DNA of 31,690 nt. It comes from a virus. Location: positions 1 through 31,690 of IMG/VR virus record IMGVR_UViG_3300005290_000044. The stretch is one strand, 5' to 3'. This document shows, piece by piece, positions 23,042 through 31,646 of this stretch. Position numbers and translations under genes: made by a program. The notes below the pieces were generated by a model. The model saw only the letters and a program-made list of their open reading frames with translations. It was not told the DNA's origin and made no database searches. Position 1 is the first letter of the stretch. The number at the start of each line of letters is the position of its first letter.

Positions 23042-23685
23042 AGCGACCAACTGATCCGGTACGGGGTCAGCCACTCGCGGACCGCGCCCGGCATCCCCGT
23101 CGCGTCCGAGGTGTCGCCGCTGCTGCTGTAGACTTGGGTGATGAGGTCGGGGATCGTCTCGCTACGCACCGAGGGATCGCGCCCGACCGCGCTGTAGCGG
23201 ATCGATATCCACTCCAGGCAGGCGCCCTGCACATCGGCCGGGATCGGATCGAAACCGGCGGTGTAATCGACCACCAACGTCGCGGTATTCCAGGCATAAG
23301 GCGCCGCCGACCCATCGAGCCGGTAGAGGCTGCCGGCGTCCGGGTAGATGTCGAGGTATGCCGGGTCGAGCGCCACGCCCGCTTCGGTGACGGCGACGAG
23401 CGGCACGCCGGCAACGTCAACCGCGATCGGATATTGCCGGGTTATGAACGGCTCGCCGTAGCCGCCGTAAGCATTACGGACCTGATCGCGATAAACCTGC
23501 TGGACGAATACGCGGTCGCAGTAATTGGCGATCGCCGCCGAGGTCGCGCTGATGTGCTGGCTGATCTGCGCGTCTTTCGAAGTGTCCGCCGGGTCAATAC
23601 CGAGCAATGCCTTGGCCTGGTCGAGCGTCACCAGATCGAGGCTCGTCGCCGGCGTGATGACGCGGGTGATGCGGTAGTAGTTCAC
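23038..23685 (-). CDS. Head-tail connector (HK97 gp6-like)
   Basis: A 215-residue protein. TSLDLVTLDQAKALLGID is the family start, followed by a DAQISQHISATSAAIANYCD helix and PADVQGACLEWISIRY, the pattern of the gp6-like connector adaptor that binds beneath the portal ring. ATG overlaps the collagen-like gene's stop by 4 bases. Confidence 0.8.
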   Translation of the reverse strand: MNYYRITRVITPATSLDLVTLDQAKALLGIDPADTSKDAQISQHISATSAAIANYCDRVFVQQVYRDQVRNAYGGYGEPFITRQYPIAVDVAGVPLVAVTEAGVALDPAYLDIYPDAGSLYRLDGSAAPYAWNTATLVVDYTAGFDPIPADVQGACLEWISIRYSAVGRDPSVRSETIPDLITQVYSSSGDTSDATGMPGAVREWLTPYRISWSL

Positions 23686-24344
23686 CGGGCGAGCCGCGAC
23701 AGCAGCGGGTAGAGATCGCAGCCGAGCGCGCTGCCGTCGCCAAAGCGCAGCGTCAGCATGCCCTCGGGATCGACTTCAAGCGCGGTCGCCACCGGCCCCG
23801 GCGGCCCGCGCTCGCCCCTCTCGCCGGGCTTGCCTGGCTTGCCGTACCCGCCCTGCGCCGCGAGCATCTGCCAACCCTCACCGGGGCACGGACCCGGACC
23901 ATCGACCCGCGCCGCAAAGCTCGCGCCGTTGAGCATCACAACGTCGAGCGCGCGATACTCGGATGACGGGTTCCACGTCCCACGGATCGTGAAGCTGCGC
24001 CCTTCGCCGCCCGGCGAGCCGGGCGGCCCAGGAAGCCCCTGGATGCCCGGTTCGCCGGGTGGGCCTGTGATAGCCTCGCCCGGCTCTCCACGCTCGCCCG
24101 GTGGCCCTGGCGGGCCGATTTCGCCGTCCTTGAGTTCGGCGAGGCGCGCCGCGACCAGCCGCTCGACCCGCAACTCGGCCTCGGCCCACGCCGCCCGCAT
24201 GTCTGACGCGAGCGCCGCCATCGTCAGCTTCAAGTCCCGTTCGATACGGGCCGCGTCCGCCGCCAGTTCGGCGGCAAGCGCCTCAAGCGGCCCGGCGGCG
24301 TTCGGCACGGTAGGCAAGGACTGCCCGTTCTGATGCGTGTTCAT
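23682..24344 (-). CDS. Collagen-like virion protein in the head module
   Basis: A 220-residue protein. Residues 20-72 form a helical, coiled-coil-like stalk. G-X-Y triplets follow at 74-115 (with GPPGPPGERGEPGE) and 165-184 (GKPGKPGERGERGPPGP). Between them, residues 117-163 (TWNPSSEYRALDVVMLNGAS, then EGWQMLAAQG) look like a small carbohydrate-binding module of the type that accompanies phage collagen repeats. ATG 24344 is chosen; the frame is open upstream but inside portal. It overlaps the portal's 3' end by 62 nt. It probably forms trimeric fibres on the capsid or neck; the location is inference. Confidence 0.75.
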   Translation of the reverse strand: MNTHQNGQSLPTVPNAAGPLEALAAELAADAARIERDLKLTMAALASDMRAAWAEAELRVERLVAARLAELKDGEIGPPGPPGERGEPGEAITGPPGEPGIQGLPGPPGSPGGEGRSFTIRGTWNPSSEYRALDVVMLNGASFAARVDGPGPCPGEGWQMLAAQGGYGKPGKPGERGERGPPGPVATALEVDPEGMLTLRFGDGSALGCDLYPLLSRLAR

Positions 24345-25665
24345 CGGTCTTTTGCGCTGCGTCGGCGGGGGGTTGTGGCGTATCCGGCGGCGGCAATGCC
24401 GCCTGCGGCGTCGGCGGCTGCATGTCGCTGCCATAGCTCAGCGGGACGACCTGCTGCTGCACCCGCGGTTCAGATCCATGACCGCCCGGTACCGCCGGCA
24501 GGTCTTCGGATGCGCGTGCCTCGTCGGGACTGTAGATGCCGGAAATGACACCGCGCGCCAGCGCCTCGATGCGCTCGCGATAAGCCGAGCGCAGCAGCGC
24601 CCGGGTGTCGAGTTCGAGATATTCGTCCGGCACGCCGCGAAGCTGGAAGAGTTGCCCGAAGGCTTCCTCAATGTGATTGAGCGTGAACCCGAGCCCGGTG
24701 CCGATCCACGACTGCATCAATAACTCGGTGTTGGCGTAGGTTGTGCCGCCGATGCCGAGGATTTGCAGCGGTATCCGCATCGCCAGCGCGATGTTCTGAT
24801 CGCTCATCTTGAGCATTTCGGCGAGTTGCGCGTCGACCGCGCTTGTCGCGATCGGCTGCGCCTTAAGCCCGTGCGTCAGGATCGGCGTGCGCCCGGCAGC
24901 GTCGCCCTGTGTCTGGTGATCCCACCACTGCCGCAGTTCCTGCGACTGCTCGCGCTTCATCGGCAGATCGGTAGTCAACAGAAAGCTCGGCCGCGCCTGG
25001 TTCAGATAGAACGCGATCTGCTGGTTGAGCGCCGCATCCGACATTGCCAGATCCAGCGCCGCCGCCATGATTGGGCTCGCGCCCTTGAGCGGATGCCGCG
25101 GCGTATGCAGCCGGATGTGCAGCACGTCGCGGGCCGGCACGGGATAGGATAAATCCAGCCGTTGCTCGATGATCTCGTTGCCCTGTAGCGAATAGAAGAT
25201 GCTGCCATCCTCGGCCACCGTCGCCGAGCCTTCGCGCATCAGGTGCAGTTCGATGATCTCGGCACGAGCGTTGCGCACCGCGAGTGCAAACGTCTCGCCG
25301 CGCTCATACAGCCGGCGGGTGAGGTTCAATAAAAAATCGGAAATCGATTGGTAATCGTTCGGCCGCCGCATGATGCGCGACAGCGCCGAATTCGTCACCC
25401 GCTCGCGCCCGCCATTGGACAGGCTGCGCCAGTGGTCGCCGGGGCACATCGGCACCGTCTGGCTATAGGCGCTGATGCACGCCTCCAGCATGGCGCTGCG
25501 CCCCGTGTAGGGTTGGAGGTTGTGACCCGACTGCCACCAGTTGAGGTAGCGTCCGGCGCTGGCGCTGAGCCAGCCGCCGGACAGCATGTAGGGGCCGGGC
25601 CGGTATTGTCCCTCAACTGCCCGCGCCTTCCAGGGAATGACGCGGGCGAGCCAAGCCGTGTTCAT
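24283..25665 (-). CDS. Portal protein (HK97 family)
   Basis: A 460-residue portal of the PF04860 type: RPNDYQSISDFLLNLTRRLYERGETFALAV, VLHIRLHTPRHPLKGASPI, and the stem/wing segment IPLQILGIGGTTYANTELLMQSW are family marks (each quoted only in part). It forms the dodecameric ring for DNA passage. It begins one base into the preceding stop (TGATG). Its last 60 residues are proline-rich and overlap the collagen-like gene. Unusually it follows the capsid gene rather than preceding it. Confidence 0.9.
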   Translation of the reverse strand: MNTAWLARVIPWKARAVEGQYRPGPYMLSGGWLSASAGRYLNWWQSGHNLQPYTGRSAMLEACISAYSQTVPMCPGDHWRSLSNGGRERVTNSALSRIMRRPNDYQSISDFLLNLTRRLYERGETFALAVRNARAEIIELHLMREGSATVAEDGSIFYSLQGNEIIEQRLDLSYPVPARDVLHIRLHTPRHPLKGASPIMAAALDLAMSDAALNQQIAFYLNQARPSFLLTTDLPMKREQSQELRQWWDHQTQGDAAGRTPILTHGLKAQPIATSAVDAQLAEMLKMSDQNIALAMRIPLQILGIGGTTYANTELLMQSWIGTGLGFTLNHIEEAFGQLFQLRGVPDEYLELDTRALLRSAYRERIEALARGVISGIYSPDEARASEDLPAVPGGHGSEPRVQQQVVPLSYGSDMQPPTPQAALPPPDTPQPPADAAQKTDEHASERAVLAYRAERRRAA

Positions 25666-25979
25666 CAGCGGGTCGTGTAGCCGCTGCCGGTTTGCGGATT
25701 CATCGCCCGCTGGCGTTGCTCCAGTTGCTCAAGTTCGCGCTTGTGCCTCGCTTCGAGCGCGTCGCGCTCGCGCTTTTGCACTTCTGCAGGAGTTTCAGGC
25801 GGCGACGCTTTGGTCGGATCGTAAGTTCCCTCGGCCATCTGGTCGAGTTCCGCCTGCGTCGGGGTTGCCGGTGGTGGGGTCGGCTCGCTCAGCGGCTCAA
25901 CGCCCTGTCGCGATGCGTGGTGCTGACGCGGTTGCGCCGGCTGCTCAGGCGCCGGGTGTTGCTCGTTGCGGCTTTGCAT
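25665..25979 (-). CDS. Small proline-rich, coiled-coil protein
   Basis: A 104-residue protein: a proline/glutamine-rich N-terminus (PEQPAQPRQHH, PTPPPATPTQ), then a highly charged helix KRERDALEARHKRELEQLEQ expected to form a coiled coil. It lies between the capsid-side gene and portal. A scaffold, portal-associated or assembly role is possible; no family recognised. Confidence 0.65.
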   Translation of the reverse strand: MQSRNEQHPAPEQPAQPRQHHASRQGVEPLSEPTPPPATPTQAELDQMAEGTYDPTKASPPETPAEVQKRERDALEARHKRELEQLEQRQRAMNPQTGSGYTTR

Positions 25980-25990
25980 TTACTTTCTCC

Positions 25991-26338
25991 TCATGGCACT
26001 TCGATGGCGATCGCAAAATCGCGTTTATCCCATTGGATCACCGGGAAAGAGCGCGTCCCCGACCGCACTTTTAGAAACGCGACGGCGCGCAGGTAGTCCG
26101 ACAGCGGCGCCACGACGACGGCGCTGCCGGGTACCACCGGAATGACAATTTCCTTGCCGTCCATCCCGACCAGGTCGTTGTAGCCCTGCCCGTCCGACGA
26201 GATTTGGAATGACAGGTTTCCGCCGCTCCAGGCCGCCGGCATCGTCAACCGGACAATCGCCCCGGCGGTGCAGTCCAGACCGTCCGAGAGCGATTGTCCG
26301 GGCTGAATGACCGGCCCGTTCAGTACTTGGAGCGGCAT
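25991..26338 (-). CDS. Small beta-rich protein beside the capsid gene
   Basis: A 115-residue protein beginning directly after the capsid stop (TAGATG). It is rich in predicted strands (GNLSFQISSDGQ, KEIVIPVVPGSAVVVAPL). Proteins of this size next to a capsid gene are often decoration or cement proteins, and the fold pattern would allow it, but no family was recognised. Confidence 0.65.
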   Translation of the reverse strand: MPLQVLNGPVIQPGQSLSDGLDCTAGAIVRLTMPAAWSGGNLSFQISSDGQGYNDLVGMDGKEIVIPVVPGSAVVVAPLSDYLRAVAFLKVRSGTRSFPVIQWDKRDFAIAIEVP

Positions 26339-28246
26339 CTACCAGGTCACTCCCGACATCCACTGCACCATCCCGGTGCGGCGCATGGCCCAAGTCGTCG
26401 GCAAGATGAGCCGCAATGCGAGTTGGTTGGTCTGGTACATGCTCTCGACCGGAGCGGCGACGACATTCGGGGTACCTGGTGTCGAGATATTGGCCGGCGC
26501 CGTGTCCTCGATATGCAAGGTCGCCTCCTCGCTGACCATGAACTCGGGCGTTCCCATGACGCTGACGAAATCGGCGGCATCGATCATGTAAACCGTGCCG
26601 GCCGGCACCACCGTCGACTCGATGATGGTGAGTCGATTGGTGAACTGCTCGGTCCAGTTAAACCCGGTATTGCCCGGCCCCGGCGTCATCATCAACCCGA
26701 GTGCCTGCGCCGGGTTGATCAGCATCACCAGCCGCTCGCCGGCATTGACGTTGTAGAAGGGCGCCGTCAGCAGCTTGAGATCGCCGAGGATCGCGGCATA
26801 GCCGCCGCCGGCCGTAGGGGTGAGAGCCGCCACGCCGTTGATCAGACCCGCTGGCCTGGTGCTGCCGCTGCCGCCGCCGGCAACGTTGTCGATCAGGAGC
26901 GTGTCGAGCATCAGCCCGGTCTTGCGGATGATCGCGTCGCGCACCAGCCCTTCGAGGCTCGGGTTGCTGTAGGCGGCGATCTCTCGGCTGTAGCGGGTTA
27001 TGACGCCGACCTTGTGCGGATATAGGCTCAGCGACGTGAAGCCCATGCGGCGCACCGGGATCGGCTGCGCCTCACCGACGAAGCTGCCGGCAATGTTTGG
27101 GGTCGCCGCCTCGCTCGGTATCCTGATGACGCCCGCATCGGGGCCGAATTGGAGCGATGTGCCCTGCGCCGCCAATGTCGGCAAGATGCGCCGGGCGGTC
27201 AGCGGCTGCAGCATCGCCGCGGTCGCGATCTGCACCAACTCGGCCGCCCATGTTGCAAGTGTCGTCGAGGCGCCCGCCACCGCTGCGCGGGTGATGACCG
27301 AGGTAGCCTCGTCGTCGGGGTAACGGTCGGCGAGGATGTCCTCGACGGCCCGGTGCTGGATGTAGGCGCGCAAGGCTACCGAACCGGCTCGCCATAGATA
27401 TTCCTGCGGCTCGACCTCGCGCTGCTGCAGGCCCAGCGGACGGCGCGGCAGGGCCGGCGTCCGGGCTTCGGGTTGCTGCTGTGCCGACCGTATTGCCAGG
27501 GAGCGCTCGCTGCGCTCAAGGCTGGCGAGCCGCTCGGTCACCGACTCGATTTCGGCGTTGAGATCGTCCGCCCTGATCGGGTCGTGGTCGGGGTCGCGGG
27601 TATGCTCGACAAGGCTGTCGCGCGCCGCGTTGAGTCGTTCCTGAGCGTGTTCGATCTGCTGACTAATGGTTTGCGTGGTCATCGGAGTGCCCCTCGATCG
27701 GGGTTGCGTCACGGCATGCCCGCCGGGCGTGGCTATGTCCCGTCTCTGTCCGGCATGCCCGCCGAAGACGAAGGCCATAGTGTCGTCAGAAATGTTCAGC
27801 GACTTCGCCACCGCGAGCGCCGCCGGGTTGGCCGGGACGCTGACGATGGAGGTTTCGAGCAGCTCCTGCCGGGTGTAGCGGGTGCCGGCCAGTGGGCGCT
27901 TCGGATCGATCGGCTCGCTCGCGACGCCGCGGAACCCGACACTGGTGGCGCGCAAGATGTCCTGCTCGATCAGCGACAGGATTTCGTCGGTGCGCTGCGA
28001 GGTGCCCTTCTTCGCCGGCGCGAAGTCCGCGACAAGGCGACTGTCCTCTACCCGGATATTCTGCCATCTGCCGATCGGCTGATGCTGTAAATGATTGAAC
28101 AGCGCGATCGGGTTCGACCGGAAGCCGTCGAGCAGCCAACCGTCCGGCTCGATGATGTCGCCGTAACGGTCCATCGTCGCGTCGCTCAACACGTAGGACT
28201 GGCTGCCCGCGGCCTTCCCGGCCGCGGTCTTGCGGATCATCTGCAT
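26339..28246 (-). CDS. Prohead protease fused to HK97-fold major capsid protein
   Basis: A single 635-residue frame. Residues 1-160 are an HK97-type prohead protease (S78 family): LFNHLQHQPIGRW supplies the histidine (H52), ATSVGFRG the serine (S102), and LLETSIVSVPANPAALA is the closing family motif. Residues 189-255 are a coiled-coil delta/scaffold region. From about 280 onwards is the capsid protein: ILPTLAAQGTSLQFG, GFTSLSLYPHKVGVITRYSRE and a P-domain around LLIDNVAGGG. In most HK97-like phages these are separate genes. ATG 28246 is preferred to TTG 28282 (AGGGG upstream). An internal in-frame ATG at 27682 has an almost identical start region and could yield a 447-residue capsid precursor alone. 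Confidence 0.88.
   Translation of the reverse strand: MQMIRKTAAGKAAGSQSYVLSDATMDRYGDIIEPDGWLLDGFRSNPIALFNHLQHQPIGRWQNIRVEDSRLVADFAPAKKGTSQRTDEILSLIEQDILRATSVGFRGVASEPIDPKRPLAGTRYTRQELLETSIVSVPANPAALAVAKSLNISDDTMAFVFGGHAGQRRDIATPGGHAVTQPRSRGTPMTTQTISQQIEHAQERLNAARDSLVEHTRDPDHDPIRADDLNAEIESVTERLASLERSERSLAIRSAQQQPEARTPALPRRPLGLQQREVEPQEYLWRAGSVALRAYIQHRAVEDILADRYPDDEATSVITRAAVAGASTTLATWAAELVQIATAAMLQPLTARRILPTLAAQGTSLQFGPDAGVIRIPSEAATPNIAGSFVGEAQPIPVRRMGFTSLSLYPHKVGVITRYSREIAAYSNPSLEGLVRDAIIRKTGLMLDTLLIDNVAGGGSGSTRPAGLINGVAALTPTAGGGYAAILGDLKLLTAPFYNVNAGERLVMLINPAQALGLMMTPGPGNTGFNWTEQFTNRLTIIESTVVPAGTVYMIDAADFVSVMGTPEFMVSEEATLHIEDTAPANISTPGTPNVVAAPVESMYQTNQLALRLILPTTWAMRRTGMVQWMSGVTW
27680..27694 (-). 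promoter_or_regulatory. Internal ribosome site and start for separate capsid synthesis
   Basis: On the minus strand AGGGGCACTCCGATG matches AGGGGCATTCCCATG at the protease start (28244-28258) in 13 of 15 positions. The internal ATG is in frame and begins the scaffold-capsid part. This suggests a second translation start inside the fused gene. Confidence 0.5.
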
Positions 28247-28272
28247 GGGAATGCCCCTGGGAGGCGATAGGA

Positions 28273-28289
28273 AGGCCGCCAAACGGCCT
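28273..28289 (-). other. Small hairpin between terminase and protease-capsid genes
   Basis: AGGCCG-TTTGG-CGGCCT, a 6-bp stem with a 5-nt loop, in the short gap after the TerL stop. There is no T-run. It could be an mRNA-processing or stability element that lets capsid be made in excess, or it could be chance. Confidence 0.35.
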
Positions 28290-28305
28290 CAATGACTTTA
28301 GGCGG

Positions 28306-29835
28306 TCAGACGATCATCGCCTGAATGTCGATCTCCTGGCTGTCCTCAAGCGGCGCGACGCCGCACAGTTCGGCGAGCGCGATCGCGCCGTCGATGCGCC
28401 CCGCGCTGCGGTCCTTGGCGAGCTTCCGATTGCCCGCCGGGTCGCTCTTCACGACCGCATTCGCCATGCACATGCTCAACACGGGATGCGCCCCGTGCGC
28501 GATGCGACCGTTCAGGATCTCGCCTTCGAGCGCGCGCAGCGCCGGCGACATGTCCTGATAGCCTTGCCCGAACTCGACGAAGTGCTCGTCGAGCTGGCCT
28601 TCGGTAAAGCCGGCCTTGAGCAGCCACGGCCGCAGATGCCGCCAACCCCACCTGTCGAATCCGATCTTGCGCACGTCTTGGCGATCGAAGACGCCGCGCA
28701 AATGTTCGGCGACATACTCGTAATCGACCGACTTGCCCGGTGCGGCCAGCAGATGCCCGTCGCGGTGCCAAACGTCATACGGCACGCGATCCGCCCTGGC
28801 CTTATTCGCCAACCCGTCGCCCGGCAGCCAGAATGTCGGGTGTATCTGCCACACCCCGTCGATCCGCGCGCCGAGCACCAGCGCGGTGAGATCGTTCACC
28901 GCCGACAAGTCCAACCCGCCATAGACCGGGTGGCCGGCGAGCGGCAACGGATCGGCCCCGCACGCCTGCCACAGTTGCCGGCTGATGAACGGGGCGCTCG
29001 CCTCGACGCGCCGGTTGAGGATCAGGTTCTCGAATTCGGCCTGCCTGCTTGGCATTCGGCGGGCGTCTTCCGCCTTGCTCAGCGTCTCGGTGACACTCAA
29101 GAATTCGCCGTAAGCGGGATTGGCCGCTTTAATCGCCTCCTCCGAAAACGGGTCCAGATCCATCGGCGCGGTGTGCAGCGAGACGACGACGCGCGGATCG
29201 TGCGCCGCGATGCCATCGTCAATCAGCACCGAGAGCAAATCCGCATCCGTGGGTGCCTGCGTAGAGATAATGATCGACAGCGGATGTTCCTGCGCGCCGG
29301 TGGCGGTTTCCAGCGCCTCATAAAGCGGGCTGCGCGGGCCGCGCACTTGACCTAACTCGTCATGCACAACGAAGACCGGGCTGAGGCCGAACGCCGTCTT
29401 GGCCTCGGCGCTGAGCGCTCGGTACACGGTGCCGAGTTCGGGGCATGCCAACTCCTTGGCAACTTCGCGAATGAGTACGACCGAACGCAGTTGTTCCGAG
29501 CCACGGACGATCTTGACGGCGAGATCAAACAACAACTTGGCCTGCCCCAGCGATTGCGCGGCGCTGAACAACTGCGAATTCGGCTGGTCGAAACCCTCGG
29601 GTCCGCACAGGTGCAGCAGCAGCAGAAATGCGGCGAGGGCGGTTTTTCCATTCTTTCGACCAAAGCTGAGGATCGCGCGGCGCGTCACCGCCGGGTTGTC
29701 GTAAATCCGCAGCAACTCGGCCTTCTGCCAATCGCGCAGCACGACCGGGCGGCCTTGCAGTTGACCCTCGGGCACGACGCAGCATGTTTGAATCCAGGTG
29801 ATGGCCCGCTCGCCGCGTGTCGGCGGCCGGTTCAC
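28306..29835 (-). CDS. terL: Terminase large subunit
   Basis: A 509-residue packaging ATPase-nuclease. Walker A GRKNGKT is at 59-65, Walker B VFVVHDE at 154-160, and a nuclease acidic site in GGLDLSAVNDL (D309). SAGRIDGAIAL near the end is the last metal-binding block. The start is GTG at 29835, overlapping the TerS stop (GTGA), because NRPPTRGERAITWIQ is the usual TerL beginning; the frame is open further upstream inside terS. It cuts and pumps phage DNA into the prohead. Confidence 0.92.
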   Translation of the reverse strand: MNRPPTRGERAITWIQTCCVVPEGQLQGRPVVLRDWQKAELLRIYDNPAVTRRAILSFGRKNGKTALAAFLLLLHLCGPEGFDQPNSQLFSAAQSLGQAKLLFDLAVKIVRGSEQLRSVVLIREVAKELACPELGTVYRALSAEAKTAFGLSPVFVVHDELGQVRGPRSPLYEALETATGAQEHPLSIIISTQAPTDADLLSVLIDDGIAAHDPRVVVSLHTAPMDLDPFSEEAIKAANPAYGEFLSVTETLSKAEDARRMPSRQAEFENLILNRRVEASAPFISRQLWQACGADPLPLAGHPVYGGLDLSAVNDLTALVLGARIDGVWQIHPTFWLPGDGLANKARADRVPYDVWHRDGHLLAAPGKSVDYEYVAEHLRGVFDRQDVRKIGFDRWGWRHLRPWLLKAGFTEGQLDEHFVEFGQGYQDMSPALRALEGEILNGRIAHGAHPVLSMCMANAVVKSDPAGNRKLAKDRSAGRIDGAIALAELCGVAPLEDSQEIDIQAMIV

Positions 29836-30266
29836 ATCTCCCAGGGCTTTGGACCCTTGGCGGCGTTGCGTGCTGCTGTTGCGCCGCTTTGCGCGTTGTA
29901 CCGGCTTTGATTGGTTAGCCGCAGTTTTGTTGCGAGCGACGTTGCGCCGCGAGTTTCCAGATCGCGCATCTTGAGCAGGTCTTTGTAGCGCTTGGCGCCC
30001 TCGTTTGCTTTTAGCCATTGCGGATCAAAACTGTTGATGATCTTGGAGATGCCTTCCGAGGCTTCGCGGTGCCGGCAGTATTCGGAGAGCATGCCGCGCA
30101 AGGCTCCGGTGTTGAAAAAGTTCGGGTCTTCGCTGCTGACGATCTCGCGCCAGATTTCGGCTTGGCGCTCAGTCAAATCCGTTGGCGGTTCCGGTCGCGT
30201 CCCGAACCCGCCGGCGATGACGACCGCGGCTTGTGCCGCCGCCGACCTACGCCCGCGCTGGTTCAT
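29832..30266 (-). CDS. terS: Terminase small subunit (P27 family)
   Basis: A 144-residue protein: RPEPPTDLTERQAEIWREIV and LSEYCRHREASEGISKI match the P27-type small terminase. The C-terminus is basic (NQSRYNAQSGATAARNAAKG). It should recognise the packaging site and recruit TerL. The start overlaps the preceding small gene by ATGA and the stop overlaps terL. Confidence 0.85.
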   Translation of the reverse strand: MNQRGRRSAAAQAAVVIAGGFGTRPEPPTDLTERQAEIWREIVSSEDPNFFNTGALRGMLSEYCRHREASEGISKIINSFDPQWLKANEGAKRYKDLLKMRDLETRGATSLATKLRLTNQSRYNAQSGATAARNAAKGPKPWEM

Positions 30267-30436
30267 TCGGGCTTCGGTTCGCGCCGACGCGGCATCCAGG
30301 TGGCCGAGCGCAGGCTGGCCGGCACTGGCTCGCCCGCCTTCACGCGTTCGCCGATCGCCTGGACCGCGGCGTAGTACGAACCGATGGCGTCAGCCTCCAG
30401 CTCGGCCTCGCTAAGCGGCAATAGCGGTTCGCGCAT
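30263..30436 (-). CDS. Small helical protein before the terminase genes
   Basis: A 57-residue protein: an acidic N-terminus (SEAELEADAIGSYYAAVQAI) and a basic end (RSATWMPRRREPKPE). ATG 30436 overlaps the upstream methyltransferase by 26 nt; an upstream ATG at 30529 in the same frame would overlap far more. It ends by ATGA overlap with terS. No family recognised; it may assist packaging. Confidence 0.55.
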   Translation of the reverse strand: MREPLLPLSEAELEADAIGSYYAAVQAIGERVKAGEPVPASLRSATWMPRRREPKPE

Positions 30437-31646
30437 CGAATGGCACACCATCGGGAGATACCGCCTGCTCGCCGGTGAATGCCTGCCAGCGCAGCACGGC
30501 GACGTCGACATAAGCCGGGTTGAGTTCAATCGCGTGGCAGGCGCGGCCGGTCATCTCGGCGGCGATGATCGTGGTGCCGCTGCCGCTGAACGGCTCATAA
30601 ACCGCCTGCCCCGGCGACGAGTTGTTCTCGATCGGTCGTTTCATGCACTCGACAGGCTTTTGCGTCGAATGCCCGGTTTCAGACTTGAGGTGATCGATCG
30701 CCCACAACGTCGTCTGCGAGCGGTCGCCACTCCAATGCCCGGTGCGCCCGCTTTTCACCGCGTACCAACATGGCTCGTGCTGCCAGTGGTAATGCCCGCG
30801 AGAAATGATGTGCCGGCTCTTCGCCCAGATGACTTGGCAGCGTATCTCGAAACCGACTGCCTCGAGCGAGGCTTGTACTTCGCTGGCATGCCGGTCGGCA
30901 TGCCACGCATAGGCAACGTCACCCGGAAACAATGCCCAGGCTTCGCGCCAATCCGGCCGGCCGTCGTTTGCAACGGTTCCTACGGCGCGATGGCTAGGCA
31001 GGAGTGCTTGGTTGCGCCAATCCGCGTCGTACTCCACGCCATAGGGCGGGTCGGTCACCATCAGGTGTGGCGTGACGCCGTTCAGCGCCGCCGCGACCGT
31101 ATCGGCGTCGGTGCAGTCGCCGCAGACCAGCCGGTGGCGACCAAGCAGCCACACATCGCCCGGCTGGCTGACCGGAACCGCCGGCGCGTCCGGCGCCGCG
31201 TCGGGATCGGTCAGGCCAGCGCCGCGCGCCAGCAGCGCATCAAGATCGGCGAAGCCGAGCAGCGACAGATCGAAGTCCCACTCCTTCAGCCCGCGCAACT
31301 CGTCTGCCAGCGTGTCCATGTCCCAGCCGGCGTTCAGCGCCAGTTGATTATCGGCGAGCGCATAGGCGCGTTTCTGAGGATCGCTCCAACCCTGCGCAAC
31401 CATCACCGGAACGTCGCTAATCCCAAGTTCAACCGCCGCTAATACCCGGCCATGCCCGGCAATTATCGCACCACCCTCGTCAACCAGCACCGGATTGGTC
31501 CAACCCCACTCGCGCATGCTGTCGGCGAGTTGCGCGACCTGTGCCGGCGAATGGGTGCGCGCATTCCGCGCATTCGGCACCAACCCGGCGATCGGGCGGC
31601 GCTCTACACGGTCAGCGGGCCATGCGCGAGTTATGGTATTTTCCAC
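30411..31646 (-). CDS. ParB-domain DNA methyltransferase
   Basis: A 411-residue fusion. Residues 15-100 are a ParB/Srx-like domain (NARNARTHSPAQVAQLADSM, GAIIAGHGRVLAAVELG with GHGR 64-67). Residues 165-390 are a DNA methyltransferase of the N4/N6 type with motif IV TDPPYGVEYD (DPPY 199-202) before motif I EPFSGSGTT (353-358), the beta-class order. Such ParB-methyltransferases are common next to phage terminase genes. Together with the Dam-type enzyme at 1306-2253 this gives two methyltransferases. GTG 31646 follows a CGGGA sequence. The 44 nt to the window edge show nothing else. Confidence 0.88.
   Translation of the reverse strand: MENTITRAWPADRVERRPIAGLVPNARNARTHSPAQVAQLADSMREWGWTNPVLVDEGGAIIAGHGRVLAAVELGISDVPVMVAQGWSDPQKRAYALADNQLALNAGWDMDTLADELRGLKEWDFDLSLLGFADLDALLARGAGLTDPDAAPDAPAVPVSQPGDVWLLGRHRLVCGDCTDADTVAAALNGVTPHLMVTDPPYGVEYDADWRNQALLPSHRAVGTVANDGRPDWREAWALFPGDVAYAWHADRHASEVQASLEAVGFEIRCQVIWAKSRHIISRGHYHWQHEPCWYAVKSGRTGHWSGDRSQTTLWAIDHLKSETGHSTQKPVECMKRPIENNSSPGQAVYEPFSGSGTTIIAAEMTGRACHAIELNPAYVDVAVLRWQAFTGEQAVSPDGVPFDARTAIAA

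Follow-up and report, generated by a model that had tools for sequence, protein, structure and literature searches.

The window, meaning the whole stretch of DNA that was analyzed, is a virus record of 31,690 bases whose head and tail genes lie on the minus strand, as do all window features given below. The gene studied here, at 26339-28246, is a single open frame running from ATG to TAG that encodes a protease-scaffold-capsid fusion protein of 635 amino acids plus the stop. Just upstream lies the gene for the terminase large subunit (28306-30018; profile matches), and downstream, beyond two small ORFs that match no family, lies the portal protein gene (24283-25665; profile match). The same order of terminase, fusion, small ORFs, and portal (window 24283-30018) is found in PAJU2, FSL SP-016, JLK-2012, and RHph_X2_26. 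Between the portal and head-tail connector genes, positions 23682-24434 encode a collagen-like Gly-Pro-Pro repeat protein (PF01391), and upstream of the terminase genes, positions 30411-31646 encode a ParB-like N-terminal domain fused to an N4/N6 DNA methylase.

Four parts can be recognized in the fusion protein. The prohead protease domain comprises residues 1-164 (27755-28246; profile, alignment, and structure model) and matches Peptidase_S78 over residues 45-145 (PF04586, 8.8e-6); its H52 and S102 (in SVGF) are invariant across 32 aligned relatives. A match to TIGR01543 (6.4e-8) was under that profile's cut-off. Residues 165-188 (27683-27754) form a linker that extends to about residue 191 in the model, with pLDDT values mostly of 27-48. 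Next comes a coiled-coil, delta-like scaffold region predicted by the structure model (residues 189-275; 27422-27682), followed by the HK97-fold capsid domain (residues 276-635; 26342-27421), which matches the Pfam family Phage_capsid over residues 366-529 (2.7e-7). The structure model, built from 32 relatives, places the protease up to residue 164, then the low-confidence linker, two long scaffold helices (194-216 and 223-250), a low-confidence stretch (251-274), and an HK97-type capsid domain; the placement of the domains relative to each other is unreliable in this model because the pTM is only 0.42. In Foldseek searches, the capsid part matched the capsid proteins of Roseophage R4C (8gta, 9.4e-14) and HK97 (8cfa, 2.7e-11) with TM scores (TMt) of 0.6-0.7. 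Both halves of the protein are spanned by PHROG_617 ("major head protein"; 9.1e-67, residues 20-635, profile positions 32-626). Thus, the open frame, Pfam, and PHROG_617 agree with the original prediction that one frame encodes protease, scaffold region, and capsid. The NCBIfam family NF045541, titled "prohead protease/major capsid protein fusion protein," scored 32.1 bits against a curated cut-off of 525, which makes the window protein a relative of this family and not a member.

The N-terminal start codon at 28246 is preceded by AGGGG (28254-28258), with a predicted anti-Shine-Dalgarno (anti-SD) pairing of -5.7 kcal/mol. A second ATG at 27680-27682 is the in-frame codon 189 (M189), from which a capsid precursor of 447 residues is predicted. 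It follows a putative internal ribosome-binding site, GAGGGG (27690-27695), with a predicted pairing of -7.2 kcal/mol. All pairing energies were calculated with the anti-SD of Escherichia coli. As had been noticed earlier, the two start regions, AGGGGCATTCCCATG (28244-28258) and AGGGGCACTCCGATG (27680-27694), share 13 of their 15 bases. Within the whole window, the motif drawn from them occurs without mismatch at these two sites only, but this is no independent test because the motif was derived from those very sites. Residues RG(I/T)PM had also been pointed out at both starts. This holds at the N-terminal start only conditionally: RGIPM is translated ahead of 28246 only if TTG at 28282 serves as the start, and with ATG 28246 as the start these residues are untranslated.

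The near-identity had been read as the trace of a joining of two genes that had matching ribosome sites, a claim that was not borne out by the relatives. In 31 genes whose start codon lies in the same N-terminal column, the 13/15 likeness is confined to the window gene; in the others the two 15-mers agree at 4-11 of 15 positions, and both start signals are retained without the likeness. For instance, two relatives (L055 and L057) carry AGGGGCATTCC at the N-terminal start only, and another (L034) has a similar motif at the internal start only. A duplicated or jointly evolving element was therefore rejected. Since the two sites vary independently, their near-identity is best read as a local coincidence between two good ribosome sites. 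What goes far beyond chance in these comparisons is the internal ribosome site plus its ATG, not the likeness of the start regions.

With the protein and its alignment as queries, 113 fused relatives were found in viral contigs, phages, and bacterial genomes (Bradyrhizobium, Ensifer, Sphingomonas, Devosia, and Methylobacterium), to which PAJU2 was added. A Met is present at the M189 column in 104 of 115 fused genes (window included); 10 of the remaining genes have an ATG one to five codons further on, and one has GTG. In a 32-row alignment, M189 is the sole invariant column between A143 and E247. The linker ahead of it is poorly conserved in sequence, yet it is in frame in every fused relative and 46-61 residues long in nearly all of them. 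Its being open and in frame has a rough p of 1e-37 against shuffled bases; this p, like the z values given below, is an effect size that overstates certainty because the relatives are not statistically independent. Since the linker is kept open and in frame, the full-length product appears to be maintained as well. Upstream of the internal start, purines make up 84-97% of the bases at positions -13 to -9 (77 nonredundant fused genes), and both this purine block and the start codon are retained across identities of 24-99%. The internal signal was weak (near -0.1) in a few relatives (L065, L068, L070, and L106).

Several controls point to an RNA signal at this position. In the 77 nonredundant genes, the predicted pairing at the internal ATG averaged -5.07 kcal/mol (E. 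coli anti-SD), compared to -2.34 kcal/mol at 1,059 in-frame ATGs elsewhere in these genes and -3.42 kcal/mol after the upstream codons were resampled synonymously according to each gene's own usage (z = -7.9). Similarly, an SD core 4-mer was found at 81% of the internal ATGs, compared to 7% of the other ATGs and 46% of the resampled sequences. A good example of the codon choice involved is arginine, which is encoded by AGG or AGA in 38 of 62 cases (61%) in the SD zone, compared to 246 of 3,285 (7.5%) elsewhere. In addition, at the internal site and immediately downstream of it, the 40-base folding energy reaches its weakest value and the A content its maximum. Therefore, selection at the internal start appears to act on the RNA too and not on the protein alone. 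The strength of the sites does not make the ratio of the two products predictable: the internal site is the stronger one in the window but in just 32 of 75 relatives, and since neither start is consistently stronger, SD strength gives no ground for expecting free capsid in excess.

The same arrangement recurs in other fusion families. NF045541-type fusions were taken from about 400 genomes drawn at the level of the phylum and 289 at that of the class, and in 22 of these genes the predicted pairing averaged -7.25 at the internal ATG compared to -2.24 at others (synonymous z = -6.7); in 2 of 28 full-length members, no ATG lies two codons or fewer from the column. In the Orlajensenviridae fusions (Microbacterium and Exiguobacterium phages), an ATG follows GAGAGGA or AAGAGGA at the same border, and the ATG and SD block move jointly where the linker differs. 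These repeats come from separate lineages but are not proven separate origins because the fusion families have the protease superfamily in common. An alignment with phages that keep the two genes apart had been suggested along with the original prediction, and its outcome favors an internal start. In the two unfused relatives examined, one from Microbulbifer (L125) and Stenotrophomonas phage SOVA965, the separate capsid gene begins at the homologous ATG with an SD. In a tree of 42 capsid parts, which has no outgroup, these two genes fall among four fused phage genes, implying two changes, and SOVA965 adjoins the fused PAJU2; its capsid entered the tree as two overlapping annotated pieces that were roughly joined. 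The SOVA965 record (L031, 2704-4109) annotates this capsid gene as two overlapping ORFs, a division that is either genuine or due to a frameshift in the record.

Roseophage vB_DshS-R4C offers a fused relative with a solved virion, in which there are 415 capsid copies (PMC10276861). Its capsid gene (L232, 5455-7344) encodes 629 residues, belongs to PHROG_617, and matches the protease part of NF045541 with its N-terminal half. The gene is thus a protease-capsid fusion; no separate prohead protease gene is annotated in the R4C record, and the word "protease" is absent from the main text of the structure paper (PMC10276861). ATG189 of this gene follows GGAGG and, at -9.5, is the strongest of the gene's ATGs, compared to -8.0 for the annotated first ATG. 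The deposited shell chain consists of residues 362-629 only. This chain is consistent with removal of the scaffold on maturation, as may also occur in the window protein. It fits either a dual start or a single long product because a delta-type scaffold cleavage would remove the same stretch.

Four features are established at the level of sequence and modeling: an internal start signal that is conserved, a linker that stays in frame, protease residues that are intact, and the HK97 fold. The reading that best joins them is that of a nested dual-product gene, from which a long protein of protease, scaffold, and capsid and a shorter scaffold-capsid precursor would be made. We put its probability at about 0.82. 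By sequence comparison, the gene has what a nested gene should have, a conserved in-frame internal start with a ribosome site. Initiation at 28246 would give the 635-residue protein, and initiation at 27682 would give the 447-residue scaffold-capsid precursor alone, presumably in excess over the fusion. The fusion could co-assemble with the free precursors because the delta-like scaffold and capsid domains are common to both products, and it would thereby carry the protease into the prohead. There, the protease would cut the linker and scaffold domains, and the mature shell would remain.

One alternative is that only the long polyprotein is made, that the protease frees the capsid precursor at the linker, and that the internal ATG and SD are relics from before the fusion. 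HK97-type proteases remove the delta domain, the protease of the window looks intact (H52 and S102 invariant), the linker is predicted to be disordered and hence accessible, and a shell chain starting at residue 362 in R4C is equally expected from cleavage of one long product. A relic should decay, however, yet the start codon and purine block persist while the surrounding linker diverges. The codon choices are not reproduced by synonymous resampling, and the same is true in further fusion families. Moreover, a polyprotein would force a 1:1 ratio of protease to capsid subunit. We therefore consider this alternative unlikely.

The SD-like block could instead make the ribosome pause and so give the protease time to fold ahead of the capsid part, with the ATG being incidental. 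Its location exactly at the protease-scaffold boundary would suit such a role, but a start codon then has no reason to stand at near-fixed spacing in 77 of 77 nonredundant genes, to shift in step with the SD block as the linker varies, or to be homologous to a genuine start in unfused relatives; nor does a pause account for the relaxed RNA structure around the internal ATG. An explanation by means of a pause is thus very improbable. We give equally little credence to the idea that basic or glycine-rich linker residues (R, K, and G) are kept as a protease site or binding patch and that the SD is a by-product of their codons. Position -4 does hold a basic residue (R or K) in 54 of the 77 genes, but the same residues encoded by resampled synonymous codons give clearly weaker SDs (z of -7.9 and -6.7), and the preference for AGR arginine codons (61% versus 7.5%) is confined to the SD zone. 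The nested dual-product reading accommodates these observations, and the second start at 27682 proposed for a free capsid precursor is well supported by the kept start codon, the spaced purine block, the synonymous and arginine codon evidence, the relaxed RNA structure, and the homologous start in unfused relatives.

The fusion of protease and capsid is itself already known, as had been stated beforehand, and such fusions are common in small-genome siphoviruses (PMC9671004). PAJU2 ORF003 is annotated as "prohead protease fused capsid protein," and JLK-2012, the cluster EE Microbacterium phages, and the NF045541 and PHROG_617 proteins likewise combine an S78 protease, scaffold, and HK97-type capsid in one frame. 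The internal capsid start is unannotated in the records of these fusions and was found here in all these groups. The openly accessible literature yielded no account of a nested capsid start in such fusions; subscription papers may contain one. HK97 itself has the S78 protease and a delta-domain capsid protein with the same fold in gp4 and gp5, but as two genes. The Gifsy-2 capsid gene, reportedly described as tripartite by Effantin and colleagues in 2010, resembles the window gene in having the protease, central domain, and capsid within one gene, although we take its protease to be Clp-type. In a scan of that gene, several SD-like sites were found, none clearly best.

Closer parallels for the nested start come from systems in which the capsid protein has a gene of its own. 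Lambda C is a protease-scaffold gene with a nested in-frame scaffold start, and its capsid protein E is encoded separately; the C protease is ClpP-type and unrelated to S78. A scan of gene C found a strong nested SD at ATG309 (-10.8), which we take to be the start of the scaffold Nu3. Record J02459 places nu3 inside C, with its start annotated earlier than ATG309. In herpes simplex virus, UL26 encodes a protease-scaffold protein and the nested UL26.5 the scaffold alone, and the protease-derived form makes up about 10% of the scaffold (PMC12474303). The herpesvirus capsid protein is the product of a separate gene, whereas in the window the nested product would be scaffold plus capsid, and its start is a bacterial ribosome site. 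The best reading by analogy is that the window gene works like UL26/UL26.5 and C/Nu3 while being a member of neither.

We lean toward the view that protease-capsid fusions of tailed phages initiate capsid synthesis internally as a general rule, since a fused protease would be tolerable only if free precursor is made from the same message. If true, this rule would be the phage counterpart of herpesvirus UL26/UL26.5, with initiation at two sites setting the dose of protease per prohead, and R4C is a direct test case for the nested capsid start. In addition, annotations of such fusion genes would give a single product where there are probably two. For the protease and capsid genes, fusion and fission could then be nearly neutral: SOVA965 adjoins PAJU2 in the tree, and the internal start is already a complete capsid start. 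If the internal start is used, a single gene can supply few protease and many shell copies for a virus head. That would account for the ability of phages with a fused protease to build heads that do not hold a protease for every shell subunit, and it would link the strategies by which phages and herpesviruses dose their maturation proteases.
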